Shown here: piece by piece, positions 2,999-29,088 of the stretch
Layout: every line of letters starts with the position of its first letter
Position numbering within the stretch: the first letter of the stretch is position 1
From: a virus
Virus record (IMG/VR): IMGVR_UViG_3300042406_000117
Location: 1 to 39,621 of that record
Length of the DNA: 39,621 bases
Reading direction: 5' to 3' (one strand)
Made by a program: the position numbers and the translations under genes
Notes under the pieces: model-generated
The model's database searches: none
Told to the model about the DNA's origin: nothing
What the model saw: the letters and a program-made list of their open reading frames with translations, nothing else

Positions 2999-3342
2999 GC
3001 TCTGCGCCCCCTTCTGCGGAATGAGGCATCCAGAACATCCGTGAGCTGGTAGAACTGCCGCTTGGCCTTGAACTCGTCCCAGTTGACCTCCTGCGTAGGC
3101 TCGATCCCCTCCGACTCCTGCGTCCTAATTAGCCTTTCTACGGCACTAGAAAGCGAGCAATCTATCCTTTTGGCAAGGCTATCCACCCGCTTGAATGTCT
3201 CCACCGAGAGGGAGACCCGGATGTTAATCTTCTTGTCTTGGAGCTGGTTCCTTTTCCTCCCCGACCCGAAGCCGAATTTCCGCTTCTGGTTCAGCTTCCT
3301 GTTCGATGGTTGTTTTTCTAAAGATTCGTTCATAGTTTTCAT
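2995..3342 (-). CDS. Ribbon-helix-helix-like basic protein
   Basis: A 115-residue protein. The N-terminal ~36 residues are strongly basic (Lys/Arg/Asn/Gln-rich). The segment INIRVSLSVETFKRVDSLAK and the following RIDCSLSSAVERLIRT match a ribbon-helix-helix DNA-binding fold (beta strand, then two helices). The C-terminus is again basic (FRRRGRR). Its stop overlaps the helicase-loader start, so it may work with the loader at the origin or act as a repressor. The first 119 bases overlap, in another frame, the small gene 3224-3394. A start internal to the fold, without the basic arm, would avoid this overlap, but no ATG is available there. Confidence 0.65.
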   Translation of the reverse strand: MKTMNESLEKQPSNRKLNQKRKFGFGSGRKRNQLQDKKINIRVSLSVETFKRVDSLAKRIDCSLSSAVERLIRTQESEGIEPTQEVNWDEFKAKRQFYQLTDVLDASFRRRGRRA

Positions 3343-3394
3343 TGTATCGTTTGGTATCTACTCGTCTGGGTGAGTCGCCCTTGCCTGCACTCAT
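3224..3394 (-). CDS. Small conserved phage protein of the GKGDxPR type
   Basis: A 56-residue protein starting MSAGKGDSPRRVDTKRYNEN and continuing YERIFRK. This N-terminus matches a very common short phage protein (GKGD-x-PRPV ... FxxNYDxIF) of unknown function. The C-terminal half is acidic (EQEAEPEAEIRLRVGEEKE) and is read from the same DNA that encodes the basic arm of the next protein in another frame. The ATG follows AACCACC with no Shine-Dalgarno sequence. I consider it real because of the recognisable N-terminus. The acidic tail may be only what the overlapping frame allows. Confidence 0.7.
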   Translation of the reverse strand: MSAGKGDSPRRVDTKRYNENYERIFRKTTIEQEAEPEAEIRLRVGEEKEPAPRQED

Positions 3395-3417
3395 GGTGGT
3401 TATCGTACTGATTTGTT

Positions 3418-4053
3418 TTATTTACAAGACCATTTCAATGAGTCAATGTAAAGTTTCTCAATTTCATCTGCACTGGCGTTGTTTTTAATCCAGTTAGCCC
3501 TCCAAGATATTACCCTCACATTTCCCTTGGTATATCCAAGCTCTGGAATAATCTTGTCAAGTGATGGGCTTGTGTTCTTGGGTCCATTTGTTGATATTTC
3601 TATCCCTAGAACTGGACAAATCAAGGGTATTTGGATGTCGTTTATGTCAATATCAAACTGCAACCCACCAAGACTAGCCCTACTTTTTGCGGCATAAAGA
3701 AGAGATTTTTCTGGATTTTCTTTTTTGTGTTTTTTGACAAACTCATTTATCCTTGCCATATTTGCCCTTCTGTAGGCATCTTCGCAAGACTTGCAGTTTC
3801 TTGATTTACCATCTCTTCTGAAGTTGAAGTCTGACTTCAGTTTCCAGCTTTTGCACTTGTTGCACCAGTGATGTTCGTCGCTTGGCTGCTTTGGCCTATT
3901 AAGTTTATGATGGCATGGGTGGCATGACCTTATCCGATCAAGGCTGTCACATCTAACATTTGTCATTGAACCGCAATGTGGGCATTGACATTCGTAATAA
4001 GTCCTTTTTCCAATTCTAAACGGACCGCGGATTATGTGATCTCTCATCGCCAT
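3418..4053 (-). CDS. Zinc-ribbon homing endonuclease-like protein
   Basis: A 211-residue protein. The N-terminus has three Cys pairs (CQCPHCG, CHPCHH, CNKC...CKSC) suggesting zinc ribbons. The C-terminal half has CPVLGIEI, then SPSLDKIIPELGYTKGNVRV and ISWRANWIKNNA. This pattern (LDrIdp-xx-GYxxGNVxviSxxaNxiKnda) is typical of phage endonucleases of the His-Me/HNH type. It would nick or cut a specific DNA site and promote its own spread. It lies between two small conserved genes with only 3-23 bases on each side, as expected of an inserted mobile gene, and is A+T-rich. MetMAMRD offers two starts two codons apart. Confidence 0.8.
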   Translation of the reverse strand: MAMRDHIIRGPFRIGKRTYYECQCPHCGSMTNVRCDSLDRIRSCHPCHHKLNRPKQPSDEHHWCNKCKSWKLKSDFNFRRDGKSRNCKSCEDAYRRANMARINEFVKKHKKENPEKSLLYAAKSRASLGGLQFDIDINDIQIPLICPVLGIEISTNGPKNTSPSLDKIIPELGYTKGNVRVISWRANWIKNNASADEIEKLYIDSLKWSCK

Positions 4054-8027: not shown

Positions 8028-8837
8028 TTATTTGATTGCCCACTTGGGGAATGAGAGTTCTTGGATTCCTTCAACTGCCTTCGGAAACATCTTCTCCAAG
8101 ACACATTTCTGGTATTTGGCTATGGCGTTCATGTATCCGATCCGCCCCTGCTCGATGAAATCACCGGACAGGTTGACGATTGCGGTTTCATAAGGCGCAG
8201 ATGTTTCGACAAAGGCAAGCACAAAATTCGTGCGCTCTAGCCCTGTGGCGGCGTTGAATAGGTCGAGGTAGAGGGCGGCTTGCCAATGGTAGCCTCGGCG
8301 CACCACAAGGGACGCTAGGTCATCAGCCTTGCCGATGCTGGAGGTGGTCTTGATGTCCACCAAGTCATCCCCTGCCTGTGGCACAAGGTCGATCATCCCG
8401 CGCACCTTGGTTTCCCCGATCTGCGAGTAGACGGCAACCTCGGTCTTGTAGCCGGTGACAAACAACGGCTGGAGGTCTAGGTCATTGAGGATCGACTCCG
8501 CGCATTCGTTGGCGGCGTTGAGTTGGGATTGCGTGATGCAGACCTTCCCTTGTGCTACCATCGAATCCCGCCATTCCTGCGCCGCTTTGGTACGGAATGA
8601 GTCGTATTCACTCACGGCATAGGTTTCGGCGTACTCGGTAGGTGTGAGAGCAAGGCAATGCACAAGGCTTCCAAACTCCATCGCCGGCGTTGTCTCCTTC
8701 GGGCCGCTATGGAACCATTTCCAAGGGCTTTGGTCAAACTCCCAGAGCATGGATTTGGAGACATACCCGCCCAAGTTGGAGGGGCTTGCGCCCCCCTCGT
8801 AATACTTGCGCCCAAGGTTGTAGACTAGTTGGCTCAT
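8028..8837 (-). CDS. RecE-like PDDEXK exonuclease
   Basis: A 269-residue nuclease. SKSMLWEFDQSPWKW near residue 27, MEFGSLVHCLAL near 53, KVRGMIDLVPQAGDDLVDIK near 148-167 (catalytic D-x-n-D-x-K) and YHWQAALYLDL near 186 (QxxxY) follow the order of RecE/AddB-type PDDEXK exonucleases. It would degrade one strand of double-stranded ends to make a 3' tail for the RecT protein encoded just upstream. The start overlaps the recT stop by 4 bases, so the two are coupled. It is close in size to the nuclease domain of RecE alone. Confidence 0.88.
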   Translation of the reverse strand: MSQLVYNLGRKYYEGGASPSNLGGYVSKSMLWEFDQSPWKWFHSGPKETTPAMEFGSLVHCLALTPTEYAETYAVSEYDSFRTKAAQEWRDSMVAQGKVCITQSQLNAANECAESILNDLDLQPLFVTGYKTEVAVYSQIGETKVRGMIDLVPQAGDDLVDIKTTSSIGKADDLASLVVRRGYHWQAALYLDLFNAATGLERTNFVLAFVETSAPYETAIVNLSGDFIEQGRIGYMNAIAKYQKCVLEKMFPKAVEGIQELSFPKWAIK

Positions 8838-9622
8838 GGCTCCACCTCCTTGGCCATCTTCTCGAATGCCTCCGCGATCTTGTCAGCGTGTGGTTTCACG
8901 CTATGGGGCTTTGCGCTGTCCTTCTTGGGTGTATCCTCGACAATCGTCGCCTCGACCACCTCGACGGGTTCAGCTTTCGGTTCGGGTTCGGGTTCAGCCA
9001 CGAATGGGTTTGCCTTTGGTGTCACATTGCGCGGTGGTTCTGCAAAGTCCCGCACTTCGTCCTGCGTGTACATGCCCAGCGACATGTCCGAGGCATAGGC
9101 GCGTGACCAGAATGAAGCGGCGCGATAGCGGAGCATTTGACCAGGCATCGTGAGCCATTTTGAACCATTTTTGGTACTCCAACCCTCCTTCTTTGCCATC
9201 TCCAAGGTGATGCGTTCGCCCTTGAGTTCCTCGTTTGTTGCCATGTCACGCGCAACAGCGTAGCACCATGTCGGAGCCTCGTCGGAGTCGAACACGAAGC
9301 GCAGGGGCGAGAACTTCCCGCTTGCGTTCACCATGCCGATCAGCGCGGTAGCAGACCAGCTTGGCCGCCCGTGAATGATGGCAAGGTTTTGGCATACCAT
9401 CAAAGGGTCGAGCCTTGTCCGCTTTGCTACATTGAGGGCAATCGCGCAGTTCGCCACATTACCCGCAAAGTCCTTGGGGACTAGGGTTGACTTTGAGAGC
9501 ATCATCGCTTGCCGTTGCACAAGCTCGAACGCCTGTGTCTCGGCTTGTACCTGTGCCAGAATGCCCGTGTTTTGTGCTTCCTGCGGCACAATCGCATCTT
9601 GTTTTGTTTCGTCGTTTTCCAT
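8834..9622 (-). CDS. recT: RecT-family single-strand annealing protein
   Basis: A 262-residue protein. The ATG at 9622 (TAATACTATG) is chosen over one 10 codons upstream, which lies inside the preceding gene. The core has CAIALNVAKRTRLDPLMVCQ, IIHGRPSWSATALIGMVN and MLRYRAASFWSRAYASDMSL, followed by GMYTQDEV. These are the conserved blocks of the RecT family. The last ~60 residues are a Pro/Glu/Lys-rich tail, probably flexible. It anneals complementary strands in partnership with the RecE-like nuclease. Confidence 0.92.
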   Translation of the reverse strand: MENDETKQDAIVPQEAQNTGILAQVQAETQAFELVQRQAMMLSKSTLVPKDFAGNVANCAIALNVAKRTRLDPLMVCQNLAIIHGRPSWSATALIGMVNASGKFSPLRFVFDSDEAPTWCYAVARDMATNEELKGERITLEMAKKEGWSTKNGSKWLTMPGQMLRYRAASFWSRAYASDMSLGMYTQDEVRDFAEPPRNVTPKANPFVAEPEPEPKAEPVEVVEATIVEDTPKKDSAKPHSVKPHADKIAEAFEKMAKEVEP

Positions 9623-9626
9623 AGTA

Positions 9627-9815
9627 TTAGGCAAAGTGAAAGCCCACTTCAAGTTTCAGATCCTCGTAAGCCTCGGCAAGTTTCCTTGCACCAGACACTT
9701 TTAGGTAATACAGAATAGCCGCATCAGCGTCGATGTGTGCCATCTCTGCATCCGATTTGTCGATTTCCTCCAGCATAGCCAGAGCTTCTTCAATTTGTCG
9801 TTGGTTTGTTTCCAT
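9627..9815 (-). CDS. 62-residue helical hypothetical protein
   Basis: A small acidic protein, METNQRQIEEALAMLEEIDK followed by SDAEMAHIDADAAILYYLK, predicted mostly alpha-helical with a possible short coiled coil at the start. No family is recognised. It lies immediately upstream of recT (4-base gap) and starts from the A/C leader AACCAACAACG. The first 26 bases overlap the end of the upstream HTH gene in another frame. Confidence 0.6.
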   Translation of the reverse strand: METNQRQIEEALAMLEEIDKSDAEMAHIDADAAILYYLKVSGARKLAEAYEDLKLEVGFHFA

Positions 9816-25378: not shown

Positions 25379-25512
25379 AGACCAAAAGCAAAAAGCAAGT
25401 CCGCTATCTACTCAGTAAGGGTTCTCCGCTTTCCTCGACGCAACAGAATAAGCTCAAAAAAGAGTTGCACTCTGGGGCCGTTAAGGTTAAAAACGGCAAG
25501 AATACCAAATGA
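25375..25512 (+). CDS. 45-residue basic conserved phage protein
   Basis: The frame reads MKTKSKKQVRYLLSKGSPLS and continues STQQNKLKKELHSGAVKVKN, GKNTK. It overlaps both neighbours by ATGA, an unusually strong positional argument for a real gene. The pattern K-K-Q-V-R-x-L-L-S-x-G-S-P-L-x-x-x-Q-x-x-K-L-x-x-E-L-H-x-G is found in short basic phage proteins near terminase genes. Function is unknown; DNA binding during packaging is possible. Confidence 0.75.
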   Translation: MKTKSKKQVRYLLSKGSPLSSTQQNKLKKELHSGAVKVKNGKNTK

Positions 25513-26060
25513 GCGACGAAGACCTATCAGCGATTGATAGCAAAGAGGCGATGAAAGAGTTCTTCCTTGAAGTCAAGGAAAGGGCTAAGCAATTCCCTCG
25601 GAACACTATTGAGAACTACAACCCGAATGTGGCGGCACAGATCCTCTGGATGCTGGCGCAGGGTGGGCGTATCAATGCTATTGCCAAGAAGTGCAAGGTG
25701 ACGCATGAGACTGTTCGTGCGCTGGAGTGGAGGCATAACGATACGCTGGAGTCAAAGCGTAAAGAGTTCTCCAAACGCTACGCCATTGCTGCTGCTGAGT
25801 ACACAGACCTGTTGTTCGAGAAAGCCGAACAACTGAGCCGTGACCCAGACCAGTTAAAGGCTATCTCCCCAGACCGATTGGCGTTGACTATTGGCATTAT
25901 GACCGATAAGGCTGGACAGCTCTCTGGCATGGCGAGTACTATTGTCGAGCATCGAAAGGGGCCGTCTATTGACGATGCGGCCAAGATGATCGCGGAAGCT
26001 AAGTCTCGTATTGCCAATAAAGTCAAAGCACAAGCGGTAGAAGCCGAAATCGTAGAATGA
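25509..26060 (+). CDS. terS: Small terminase subunit-like protein
   Basis: A 183-residue helical protein. Residues 53-72 (GGRINAIAKKCKVTHETVRA) form a helix-turn-helix. The C-terminal half (FEKAEQLSRDPDQLKAISPD, LALTIGIMTDKAGQLSGMAS) suits an oligomerisation helix region. Together with its place just before the large terminase, this fits a small terminase that recognises the packaging start site. The acid tail (AVEAEIVE) is typical too. The gene overlaps both neighbours by 4 bases. Confidence 0.72.
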   Translation: MSDEDLSAIDSKEAMKEFFLEVKERAKQFPRNTIENYNPNVAAQILWMLAQGGRINAIAKKCKVTHETVRALEWRHNDTLESKRKEFSKRYAIAAAEYTDLLFEKAEQLSRDPDQLKAISPDRLALTIGIMTDKAGQLSGMASTIVEHRKGPSIDDAAKMIAEAKSRIANKVKAQAVEAEIVE

Positions 26061-26410
26061 TACCAGAACCAGAATCAAGATACGCTGATTACGCTAAGGA
26101 TGGAGGCAACCTCGTTCGCCATTACATGGTCGAGCATGACGGCATTAAGCACAAGTGCCACACGCTGTGCTACGCTTCGTATCTATCGGAAAAGTTTGAC
26201 GCTAAGATTTGGAATGTGGTGCTGGAAAAGTTCGTCAAGCCCTTCATTGGCGTATGCAAACATTGCAAGAAGCGTCGAGAGCTTCACTTTGTTGACGGGA
26301 ATAGAGGATCATTTCCAGCCGAAGAGGATGCGTTTTGTTGCGAGGAGTGTGATAGCGTGTATCACATCAAAGACATCCTAATGGAGACTGGTGCATATAA
26401 AACAAACTAA
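26057..26410 (+). CDS. Cys-rich protein between terminase genes
   Basis: A 117-residue protein. The C-terminal half holds GVCKHCKKRRELHFVDGNRG and FCCEECDSVYHI: two CxxC pairs forming a zinc ribbon. The N-terminal half (NLVRHYMVEHDGIKHKCHTL) has further His and Cys. It is translated with overlaps on both sides (ATGA before; TAATG after). A packaging accessory role is inferred from its position; the family is unknown. Confidence 0.6.
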   Translation: MIPEPESRYADYAKDGGNLVRHYMVEHDGIKHKCHTLCYASYLSEKFDAKIWNVVLEKFVKPFIGVCKHCKKRRELHFVDGNRGSFPAEEDAFCCEECDSVYHIKDILMETGAYKTN

Positions 26411-28893
26411 TGCAGTGGCGCAAACATCCAATCCTTCAGCCTCCCAGCGATGACGAGGTGGCATTGATGGAGCCAGATGATCTCATTGAGCTTCATCGGA
26501 TTTACCATGAGGCCATCGAGAACGCCGAAAAAGATCCATTCCGATACGGGTTTAGGCTTCCGCATTGGGAGAAGGCTGAGGAGCAATTAGCGCAAGTCTC
26601 TGAGGTTCTGGCACTTGGGGGAAATCGTTGTCTTGCCCCAGAGCAGGAGATCTATGATCCAGTCCTAAAGCGTAGTAAGCGCGTTGACGAGCTTGGATTT
26701 GATTTCCACGTACACGCTTGGGATGGCAAAAAAGTGGTTATAGCCAAAGCACAGCCACCCTTTAGGAAAGACAAGCAGGGAATTTACGAAGTTGTTTTAG
26801 ATAACGGTGAATCATTTCGTTGTTCAAAGTCTCACCTTGTCCTTCATAAGTTAGGGTGGATGGCAGTTGGAAACATCAAGCTGAACGACGAGCTTTCAAG
26901 CCCATTCTGCGCTTGCCATCCTCAGTCCAGTTCGGAACGCAACCCTTTAGAGTCACCTCAAGATGGCGGGCATTGCTCTCAAACAGCTCAAGATTCTCAA
27001 TGCGATTATCGTCTTTCACTCCGTTCTTGTGGTGAACAACTTCCGTGCGGGTCAAATACCGACCAAGATGTTTCTCCATTATTAGACGATGCTCAAGGAT
27101 ATAGCGCGTGTGCTTGCGAGCGTTCGGGTGGTTTGGGCAATAAAGCTCAATGTATCCGTCCTTGTTCACGATTCTGCCGCCTTTCCATTCGGGATGTCCT
27201 TCGCCGCTTCGTGGCCCTGTCCGCTGGCATTGTATACCGTGCTTTCTACAAATCTTGTAAATCAACTTCGCGGTCACTCGTGGATCTAGCTCCTTTGCCA
27301 GCTTTTCCGCGATATTCGCTTGAGTCCATCCTTCAGCAATCCAAAGGCGTATTTGATCTACTGGGTAAGTTATTGAGTTGTGCTTCGGCATACCGACACC
27401 CTATCTATTCCCGCCGAGTTGTCAAGATCAATTACCTCCGAGAAGATTATGTCTGGGATTTCCATGTGCCAGTTTACAACAACTACATTGTAGCTGGGGT
27501 TCCCCATCACAACTCGGGCAAAACTGCGTGGGGTTCTTACTGTGTTGTCAAAGCTGCCATCGAAAACCCAAAGTCGGAGATCTTCTGTTTTGCTCAGACC
27601 TCGGAGGTAAGCATCCGCCAGCAACAAAGCGCAGTATGGAACTGGTTGCCGCATGAAATGAGGACAAAGCAAACCTCGGCTAATGCTTACATCTCGTACA
27701 CGAAGAAGAACGGGTTTACAGACAACTCGTTGATCCTGCCCAATGCTTCGCAGATTATCTTCAAGACCTACTCTCAGTATCAGAACAACCCAACTATCCT
27801 AGAAGGTGCGGAGCTTGGTAGCCGTGACCCCCAGTGGCATAACATCGGGGTATGGTTGGACGAGTACCTTCTAGGAAACGAGCTTATTGACACCTTGCGC
27901 TTCCGTCTTGCTACCCGCAACTCCAAGATGCTGGTGACATTCACCCCGATTGACGGGTGGACGGAAGTTATTAAGGAATACTTAGATGGTGCTACAAGCG
28001 TCCAGAGCGTCGAGGCTGAGCTGCTCAACGGCGAGCTTGTCCCCTATGTCCAAAGGAGTAAGAAGCGCAATGCCAGCGTCCATTACTTCCATTCCAAGGA
28101 CAACCCTTTCGGTGGCTACGAGCGAATTAAGGAGACTTTGGTTGGAAGGCCTCGGGAGGAGATCCTAATTCGCGCGTACGGGGTTCCAGTTAAGTCCCAC
28201 GCCACCAAGTTTCCCAAGTTCAATAAAGAAGTCAATGTTGTCCAGCCATCAGAGATCCCAACTACGAATGTTACTCGCTATCACATCATTGACCCAGCGG
28301 GTGCGAAGAACTGGTTTATGGCTTGGATTGCTGTGGATGCGTCTGGTACATTTTGGGTATATCGTGAGTGGCCGGGTGTCGATGTAGGCGACTGGGCTGA
28401 GTGGAAAGGTGGTAAGTGGATGCCGGGACAAGGGGCTAAAGGACAGGGTTTTGGTATTCGTGACTACATGGACTTGATTACCGATCTTGAGGGTGACGAG
28501 AAGGTCTTTGAGAGGCTGATTGACCCTCGGCTTGGAGCGGCAAAGTACCAGTCTGCGGACGGAGCTAGTAGTATTATCGAGGATTTGAACGATTCTGGCA
28601 TGGTTTGCATACCAGCTCCAGGGTTAGACATTGACGATGGGTTGCAGGCTTTGATCGGGAAAATGGCATTTGATACAACTATCCCGTCAGATTCTGTCAA
28701 CCGACCGCATTTCTATGTCTCTTCCGAGTGCGAGAACATTATCCAAGCCTTGAGTGAATACACGGGTGACGGGGGCTTGAAGGAAGCATGGAAAGACCCA
28801 GTCGATGTTCTGCGTTACGCCGCCATTGCTGGAATAGATCATGTTGACGAAACCAGAAATCTTGCTACAAGACAGGGAGCAGGAGGCTACTAG
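26410..28893 (+). CDS. terL: Large terminase, interrupted by an intein
   Basis: An 827-residue precursor. Residues 1-73 and 369-827 form a 532-residue large terminase (packaging motor ATPase and nuclease). Ligating them yields the P-loop ALGGNR+SGKTAWG. IGVWLDEYL is the Walker B segment, YHIIDPAGAKNW and IDPRLG mark the nuclease acids, and DPVDVLRYA lies near the end as in other terminases. Residues 74-368 are an intein: Cys1 (CLAPEQEI), a block B (FRCSKSHLVL), a block F (VWDFHVPVYNNYIVAG) and the end VPHHN before Ser+1. The unspliced protein cannot have a working P-loop, so splicing must precede packaging. Confidence 0.9.
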   Translation: MQWRKHPILQPPSDDEVALMEPDDLIELHRIYHEAIENAEKDPFRYGFRLPHWEKAEEQLAQVSEVLALGGNRCLAPEQEIYDPVLKRSKRVDELGFDFHVHAWDGKKVVIAKAQPPFRKDKQGIYEVVLDNGESFRCSKSHLVLHKLGWMAVGNIKLNDELSSPFCACHPQSSSERNPLESPQDGGHCSQTAQDSQCDYRLSLRSCGEQLPCGSNTDQDVSPLLDDAQGYSACACERSGGLGNKAQCIRPCSRFCRLSIRDVLRRFVALSAGIVYRAFYKSCKSTSRSLVDLAPLPAFPRYSLESILQQSKGVFDLLGKLLSCASAYRHPIYSRRVVKINYLREDYVWDFHVPVYNNYIVAGVPHHNSGKTAWGSYCVVKAAIENPKSEIFCFAQTSEVSIRQQQSAVWNWLPHEMRTKQTSANAYISYTKKNGFTDNSLILPNASQIIFKTYSQYQNNPTILEGAELGSRDPQWHNIGVWLDEYLLGNELIDTLRFRLATRNSKMLVTFTPIDGWTEVIKEYLDGATSVQSVEAELLNGELVPYVQRSKKRNASVHYFHSKDNPFGGYERIKETLVGRPREEILIRAYGVPVKSHATKFPKFNKEVNVVQPSEIPTTNVTRYHIIDPAGAKNWFMAWIAVDASGTFWVYREWPGVDVGDWAEWKGGKWMPGQGAKGQGFGIRDYMDLITDLEGDEKVFERLIDPRLGAAKYQSADGASSIIEDLNDSGMVCIPAPGLDIDDGLQALIGKMAFDTTIPSDSVNRPHFYVSSECENIIQALSEYTGDGGLKEAWKDPVDVLRYAAIAGIDHVDETRNLATRQGAGGY
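26629..27513 (+). mobile_element. Intein inside the terminase P-loop (295 aa)
   Basis: The element lies in frame, from Cys74 (TGT, 26629-26631) to Asn368 (AAC, 27511-27513), with Ser as the +1 residue. Blocks A, B, F and G are recognisable; the penultimate His is present (H-H-N). The splicing domain is about 82 residues at the front and about 40 at the back. The block between (residues about 156-328) is not an endonuclease in this frame. It is a Ser/Cys/Gln/Leu-rich stretch (SSSERNPLESPQDGGHCSQT) that mirrors the HNH gene on the opposite strand. Confidence 0.88.
26876..27391 (-). CDS. HNH homing endonuclease, antisense within the intein
   Basis: A 171-residue protein on the minus strand. Residues 12-60 (VDQIRLWIAEGWTQANIAEK, LIYKICRKHGIQC) look like a helix-turn-helix. 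HPEWKGGRIVNKDGYIELYC is followed by TRYILEHRLIMEKHLGRYLT and EVVHHKNGVKDDNRIENLEL, the typical HNH_3-type phage homing endonuclease (E-H-R-x-x-[ML]-x-x-x-L-G-R ... V-H-H-x-[ND]-G-x-x-x-[DN]-N-R-x-x-N-L). The gene lies wholly inside the intein, between blocks B and F. It starts with ATG at 27391 without a Shine-Dalgarno sequence. It must be expressed from a separate minus-strand transcript and presumably cuts intein-free terminase genes. Confidence 0.9.
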   Translation of the reverse strand: MPKHNSITYPVDQIRLWIAEGWTQANIAEKLAKELDPRVTAKLIYKICRKHGIQCQRTGPRSGEGHPEWKGGRIVNKDGYIELYCPNHPNARKHTRYILEHRLIMEKHLGRYLTRTEVVHHKNGVKDDNRIENLELFESNARHLEVTLKGCVPNWTEDGKRRMGLKARRSA

Positions 28894-28899
28894 CAAAAC

Positions 28900-29088
28900 A
28901 TGAAAACCGCAAAAAAGCCGATAGTTGCCGAGGAGCTTATCATCGACTGCCTAAAGGAAGCCTACTTCAAAAGGGTTAAAGCCGAGAAAATAGGATCAAC
29001 CCCCAGACTTACAGAGGAGATTGAGACTCTTGAACACGCCATTCGATACATGAAATCTAGACCAAACCATGAAAACAGCACCAACTAA
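28900..29088 (+). CDS. 62-residue hypothetical protein
   Basis: MKTAKKPIVAEELIIDCLKE, AYFKRVKAEKIGSTPRLTEE, then IETLEHAIRYMKSRPNH. The protein is helical, with no known motif. The ATG follows AGCAAAAC, six bases after the terminase stop. The last 20 bases overlap the next gene. It belongs to the head-gene operon and may be a packaging accessory, inferred from position only. Confidence 0.6.
   Translation: MKTAKKPIVAEELIIDCLKEAYFKRVKAEKIGSTPRLTEEIETLEHAIRYMKSRPNHENSTN

Follow-up and report, generated by a model that had tools for sequence, protein, structure and literature searches.

A probable class of mobile inteins with the homing-endonuclease gene antisense to the splicing domain

The large terminase (TerL) gene of an IMG/VR virus very probably carries, in its P-loop, a mobile class-1 intein with the gene for its homing endonuclease lying antisense in the same DNA. 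We found the same arrangement in phages and bacterial genomes, in unrelated and mostly P-loop host genes, always in one fixed phase and kept over deep divergence. It is likely that these elements make up a widespread, undescribed class of mobile inteins whose splicing and homing functions lie on opposite strands. This reading is based on the anatomy of the element, on coding and selection on both strands, on conservation over very diverse hosts, on discordance between intein and host similarity, and on natural alleles that are empty, reduced to a mini-intein or deleted for the HNH gene; we infer from these protein splicing, expression of the antisense HNH gene and cleavage of the empty site.

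The TerL intein and the gene on its opposite strand

The window, that is, the whole stretch of DNA analysed, is an IMG/VR virus record of 39,621 bases. The features discussed below are as follows.

26410..28893, plus strand: TerL (large terminase) gene with intein; 827-aa precursor, predicted to be 532 aa once spliced
26629..27513, plus strand: intein, 295 aa, in the Walker A P-loop GGNR^SGKT; Cys1 ... His294-Asn295 / Ser+1
26629..26913, plus strand: N-terminal splicing domain, residues 1-95, blocks A and B, S66-K-S-H69
26914..27408, plus strand: host-frame linker, residues 96-260, predicted disordered, rich in Ser, Cys and Gln
27409..27513, plus strand: C-terminal splicing domain, residues 261-295, blocks F and G (AlphaFold2, pLDDT of about 96-98; Pfam)
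26876..27391, minus strand: HNH homing-endonuclease-like gene, 171 aa, ATG start; N-terminal helical part and HNH_3 nuclease domain

A first-pass annotation, made from the sequence alone, had placed a complete splicing domain in the terminase frame, and its coordinates proved exact: Cys1 at 26629, block B CSKSH, block F VWDFHVPVYNNYIVAG and a terminal HHN (27513) followed by Ser+1. Pfam Intein_splicing matched the plus frame of TerL at 5.2e-8, with a bit score of 33.3 that falls slightly short of the curated threshold (35.8). A profile built from the intein family matched solved inteins down to 4.9e-20. AlphaFold2, supplied with family alignments, modelled the splicing domain (residues 1-90 and 261-295) with pLDDT of about 94-98. 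The best fold matches that Foldseek returned for residues 1-95 and 261-295 were the NpuDnaB (4o1r, E 8.7e-7), Ssp DnaB and Mtu RecA inteins, the same solved inteins that the sequence profile recovered. The absence of splicing-domain homology, which the annotation had named as a way to be wrong, is contradicted by these Pfam, profile and fold matches. Catalytic residues C1 and H69 are invariant in 32 aligned family members, N295 is likewise invariant and H294 is present in at least 90% of the intein family, while the +1 residue is Ser in the window intein and Ser, Thr or Cys in its relatives. The insert thus combines Cys1, Ser+1, a block B His, a C-terminal His-Asn and, in the predicted model, the Hint fold; sequence and modelled fold point to a class-1 intein, which would be removed from TerL by protein splicing. 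The exact empty site is defined by intein-free TerL alleles, 1596 bp long and 95-99% identical. An intron in place of an intein was rejected: positions 26300-28900 gave no Rfam match at E <= 1, and they do contain a protein-splicing domain.

Between blocks B and F, Pfam recognised no in-frame endonuclease domain in the plus frame, and pLDDT is low: it is mostly below 50 for intein residues 99-257, the stretch that faces the HNH gene. The plus frame had been described as open through all 516 bases of the overlap and as reading like a Ser/Cys/Gln-rich linker; it contains 0 stops, and the linker is modelled as disordered. The splicing domains thus accommodate some 160 residues of apparently disordered insert, a tolerance of possible interest for intein engineering.

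The minus-strand gene is the open reading frame first noticed inside the intein, and its frame matches Pfam HNH_3 at 2.6e-11. Residues H120, H121, N129, N133 and H143 are invariant in 15 members, and the model (pLDDT 84) has three helices in its N-terminal part, plus a nuclease core. Its top PDB fold match is I-HmuI (1U3E), with a probability of 0.99 and a weak E-value of 0.065. I-HmuI is intron-encoded; it shares the HNH domain with the window protein, which differs from it in the N-terminal helical part and in being encoded antisense in an intein. The Pfam match, the invariant residues and the I-HmuI fold match give the protein both the catalytic motif and the predicted fold of an HNH nuclease, so that it appears to be homing-endonuclease-like. 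One refinement concerns its extent. The gene lies opposite intein residues 83-255, so its last codons face the end of the N-terminal splicing domain, and in many other family members it extends further, to 13-36 codons from Cys1.

No promoter for the HNH gene could be recognised: we counted 2 sigma-70-like sites, versus 2.8 expected by chance. No clear Shine-Dalgarno sequence precedes the window HNH gene, in a window where just 6 of 36 gene starts have one. Across the family, a strong Shine-Dalgarno sequence stands at 14 of 53 HNH starts, versus 12 of 141 internal ATGs. Elsewhere in the window we noted a small terminase (25509-26060; 5.1e-6) and a RecT-like annealing protein (8834-9652; 3.1e-68); among the window proteins tested, six others had no PHROG match.

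Coding and selection on both strands

Among 29 distinct close inteins, parsimony placed 49, 29 and 221 changes at codon positions 1, 2 and 3 of the HNH gene, which are TerL positions 1, 3 and 2, versus 50, 28 and 305 changes at TerL codon positions 1, 2 and 3 in the flanking splicing domain. Within the overlap, the host frame is therefore most variable at its second codon position and least variable at its third, the reverse of a conserved protein. This switch indicates that the minus-strand protein is conserved within the overlap and the plus-strand protein outside it; the same switch was seen in four other divergent groups. The proposal that the DNA is constrained on both strands is thus borne out, and purifying selection is not confined to the plus frame, since the minus frame is conserved under the HNH gene.

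Synonymous shuffles of the window HNH gene produced 6.8 +/- 1.6 stops in the TerL frame, where 0 are observed, and none of 2000 shuffles was free of stops. In five related HNH genes that have no intein, the corresponding frame contains 9-10 stops, near their own shuffle values. A chance open frame is ruled out by these codon shuffles and controls. Dipeptides of the form Phe-[IMTNK], which would force a stop in the host frame, are absent from the family (0 of 166, versus 83 of 325 in homologous HNH proteins with no intein detected). Where Ile precedes a codon beginning with A, family HNH genes use ATA in 91 of 91 cases, a choice that keeps the host frame open; both counts follow from the open host frame and show a constraint that shapes the HNH protein, and are not independent evidence. 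Single mutations in the close set are a weak test of stop avoidance, as just 24 of 339 synonymous changes would create a stop.

Silent positions of the HNH gene change at about half the rate of those in the splicing domain (1.38 versus 2.85 changes per four-fold site, p = 0.0016), indicating that the host frame is under some constraint beyond stop avoidance. The plus-frame linker is constrained mainly to remain open, with some extra constraint in addition. Few natural examples show as clearly how opposite strands can encode two proteins across 500 bases while selection can be measured on both, and if the reading is right, two-strand coding would make the element hard to alter without loss of either function.

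A family in diverse phage and bacterial genes

Searching viral contigs and bacterial genomes with HNH and TerL queries, and adding phage records, yielded 184 loci in which an antisense HNH gene lies within one host ORF that has intein N- and C-terminal domains. They comprise 97 distinct HNH gene sequences, which group into 53 clusters at 85% identity. The antisense phase is the same in 184 of 184 loci, and no HNH gene was found in sense. The host frames of the 53 cluster representatives contain 0 stops, versus 2.3-10.9 expected from synonymous shuffles; the shuffle test is strong for nearly every cluster and weak for a few, judged by the stop-free fraction (L186, 0.048; L279, 0.034; L067, 0.010). 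Hosts include several TerL families, a primase-helicase (L265), SNF2-like helicases (L075, L165) and a Strawberry-notch protein of Polaromonas (L186). Where junctions are clear, insertion is nearly always in the P-loop, at several different positions, with L075 as the exception. A search of plasmids gave partial HNH matches only.

The antisense-HNH intein is an old and widespread family. Of the origin first proposed, the part that treats intein and antisense HNH gene as one element stands, while a single odd invasion does not. Many phage DNA-packaging and helicase genes hold an intein with its probable spreading enzyme encoded antisense in the same stretch.

Cultured phages carry the arrangement too. 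In Pectobacterium phage Ymer it was read from the full locus, and relatives match by HNH sequence; in Pseudoalteromonas phage PHS3 (L292, KX912252.1 16500-22000), one continuous 708-aa frame spans both the annotated TerL and the HNH gene. An assembly chimera was rejected, as 97 different HNH sequences show the arrangement and cultured phages that were sequenced independently carry it too. Annotation overlooks the arrangement or shortens the terminase: GenBank gives the PHS3 TerL from after the intein only, with HNH as a separate gene, and for Ymer one of the two genes is annotated. A neighbouring CDS in PHS3 is labelled 'terminase ATPase subunit', yet the entire TerL ATPase lies within the 708-aa frame.

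We also searched with the N- and C-terminal splicing domains only, ran a separate search for mini-inteins, and then classed the content between the domains. An antisense HNH gene was found in 70 distinct inteins, 21 were HNH-less mini-inteins of 130-140 aa, and 6 loci were incomplete. Neither search returned a sense HNH gene or a long linker without HNH (0 of each), with the limit that most of the examples used to seed the classification profiles were antisense, so that a sense arrangement of a very different kind could escape detection. Given the splicing-domain-only searches, the antisense arrangement is not an ASCERTAINMENT effect.

One deletion allele bears on the relation between the two parts. 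L364 and L065 are identical over the 420 bases compared, save for an exact in-frame deletion of 522 bp in L364 that takes HNH codons 1-173 and leaves a 136-aa mini-intein with a 55-codon HNH remnant. Together with the mini-inteins, this suggests that the linker is dispensable for the predicted splicing. The first-pass annotation had counted homologues with a broken antisense frame and an intact intein against itself. In the HNH-bearing inteins fetched with a TerL query the HNH ORF is intact in 47 of 47, and L364, which keeps the intein without the HNH core, represents the kind of loss that a homing cycle would be expected to produce and is not a refutation.

The components of the element are already known, and the opposite-strand arrangement was not found described in the open literature: in open-licence publications we found no report of an antisense endonuclease within an intein, the paper on the ShiLan domain being the nearest match. 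The closest precedents are that domain and the antisense homing genes of nuclear group I introns. Mycobacteriophage TerL inteins are examples of large class-1 inteins in phage terminases (PMC5050341). With the large class-1 inteins of P-loop ATPases and phage terminases the window intein shares Cys1, the block B His, the block G HN/Ser+1, the Hint fold, the P-loop site, a sporadic distribution and the existence of empty alleles. Their endonuclease, however, is in-frame, whereas the window intein has its endonuclease gene on the opposite strand and, in frame, a middle part modelled as a disordered linker. The nuclear group I intron L2066 of Didymium squamulosum has an antisense homing endonuclease gene (PMC9548176), and nuclear group I introns thus likewise place a homing endonuclease opposite the host-gene strand inside a self-removing element. 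There, however, an RNA intron sits in rDNA and does not have to be translated, whereas the antisense-HNH intein lies in phage protein genes, whose host strand has to remain an open protein frame across the endonuclease gene. The ShiLan domain, a 'hidden HNH' in phage DNA methylases (PMC11855218), is similar in that an HNH gene overlaps the open host frame of a phage enzyme, and the HNH proteins are related; there, however, HNH is on the same strand as the methylase and the insertion has no splicing domain. A ShiLan-type insertion was accordingly rejected for the window, where HNH is on the opposite strand and a splicing domain is present.

Split inteins in fractured genes with free-standing endonucleases were reportedly described by Dassa and colleagues in 2009. 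These likewise are phage inteins with a separately encoded endonuclease gene, which in their case is a spacer gene, whereas in the window the host ORF is continuous and the overlap antisense. A split intein or fractured gene was rejected, the host ORF being continuous in all 184 antisense loci. The antisense arrangement adds a third way of tying a homing endonuclease to an intein, beside in-frame fusion and split genes.

Several loci have further features. In L093 (847-4359) and L094 (5001-8513), the TerL that bears the antisense-HNH intein has near its C-terminus a second, conventional-looking in-frame intein of LAGLIDADG type, ~344 aa long. The 2526-aa helicase frame of L075 (2483-10060) has, in addition to its antisense-HNH intein, a second intein-splicing match at residues 1698-2149. 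In a Nitrospira MAG (L172:1523-4489; VGWY01000134.1), an HNH gene (3004-3474, plus strand) lies antisense in an open DNA methyltransferase frame in which no intein domains were detected; it is possibly an antisense analogue of the ShiLan domain.

Mobility and alternative explanations

In one TerL clade, HNH-bearing inteins, mini-inteins and empty alleles are interspersed, with at least 11 HNH changes on the best tree, 3 of them forced by well-supported branches; co-conversion of the flanks around the insertion was not evident in this clade. Raw intein/extein identity was rejected as proof of mobility, as it is inflated by the slow evolution of dual-coded DNA, and repeating the comparison with single-coded DNA weakened the signal. 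In single-coded splicing DNA compared with the extein, an excess of intein similarity was found (215 pairs versus 41), as in L096 and L036, where the splicing domain is 97% and the extein 79% identical; the median pair is reversed (splicing 0.87, extein 0.91).

Distances between HNH genes correlate with those between splicing domains (Mantel r = 0.68; partial 0.48 when controlling for host gene), with many shared clades, indicating that both parts travelled largely together. The TerL clade described above has many empty alleles, so the intact element moves into or out of empty genes. The scattered distribution and the intein/extein discordance bear indirectly on whether the HNH protein cuts element-free alleles and drives its own transfer. 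The interspersed alleles and the correlated distances agree with the earlier suggestion that intein and HNH gene move as one element, presumably by homing. They also count against a reading that we consider unlikely, in which the HNH gene acts as an independent selfish element and spreads by homing into mini-inteins without HNH, while the intein is a harmless docking site that is not driven into intein-free TerL. Mini-inteins of the same family without HNH do occur at the same site, the HNH module was cleanly lost in L364, and ShiLan-type HNHs spread without any intein (PMC11855218). However, HNH and splicing domain have co-diversified, HNH is always in one phase and place, and the intact element enters or leaves empty genes.

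Under the preferred explanation, a mobile intein with an antisense homing endonuclease, the TerL strand would be translated across the entire element, the two halves of the splicing domain would fold together around the disordered loop, and the intein would excise itself by splicing, restoring GGNRSGKT. The minus strand would separately yield the HNH endonuclease, which would cut intein-free TerL alleles; repair of the cut allele would copy the whole two-strand element into it.

The intactness of the HNH ORF in all 47 fetched inteins is unusual for a parasite prone to decay, and HNH proteins that aid terminases in packaging DNA are known (PMC11855218). Both would fit an HNH protein recruited to the packaging machinery, or to another phage function, and kept for that and not for homing. 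We regard such recruitment as improbable, however, since close relatives with an intein-free TerL have no HNH gene at this site, the same element is found in a primase-helicase, SNF2-like helicases and a Strawberry-notch gene, and L364 lost its HNH. Regulation is less probable still: the geometry alone, with complementary transcripts that would overlap over 516 nt, favours the idea that antisense transcription of HNH dampens TerL, with the nuclease secondary, whereas selection on HNH acts at the protein level and no antisense promoter was detected. It is barely credible that selection acts for the in-frame linker and that the antisense HNH frame is a by-product or relic, as the host-frame codon positions are inverted under the HNH gene and the linker is modelled as disordered and missing in mini-inteins, even if the slow silent positions of HNH show that the host frame is not entirely free.

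The natural empty, mini, HNH-bearing and HNH-deleted alleles allow direct tests of the homing cycle and of what overlapping genes cost. Among the intein-free TerL genes, L137 (5001-6593) has the P-loop GGN-SGKT, one Arg codon short at the insertion point; the missing codon is possibly the scar of an imprecise intein loss.
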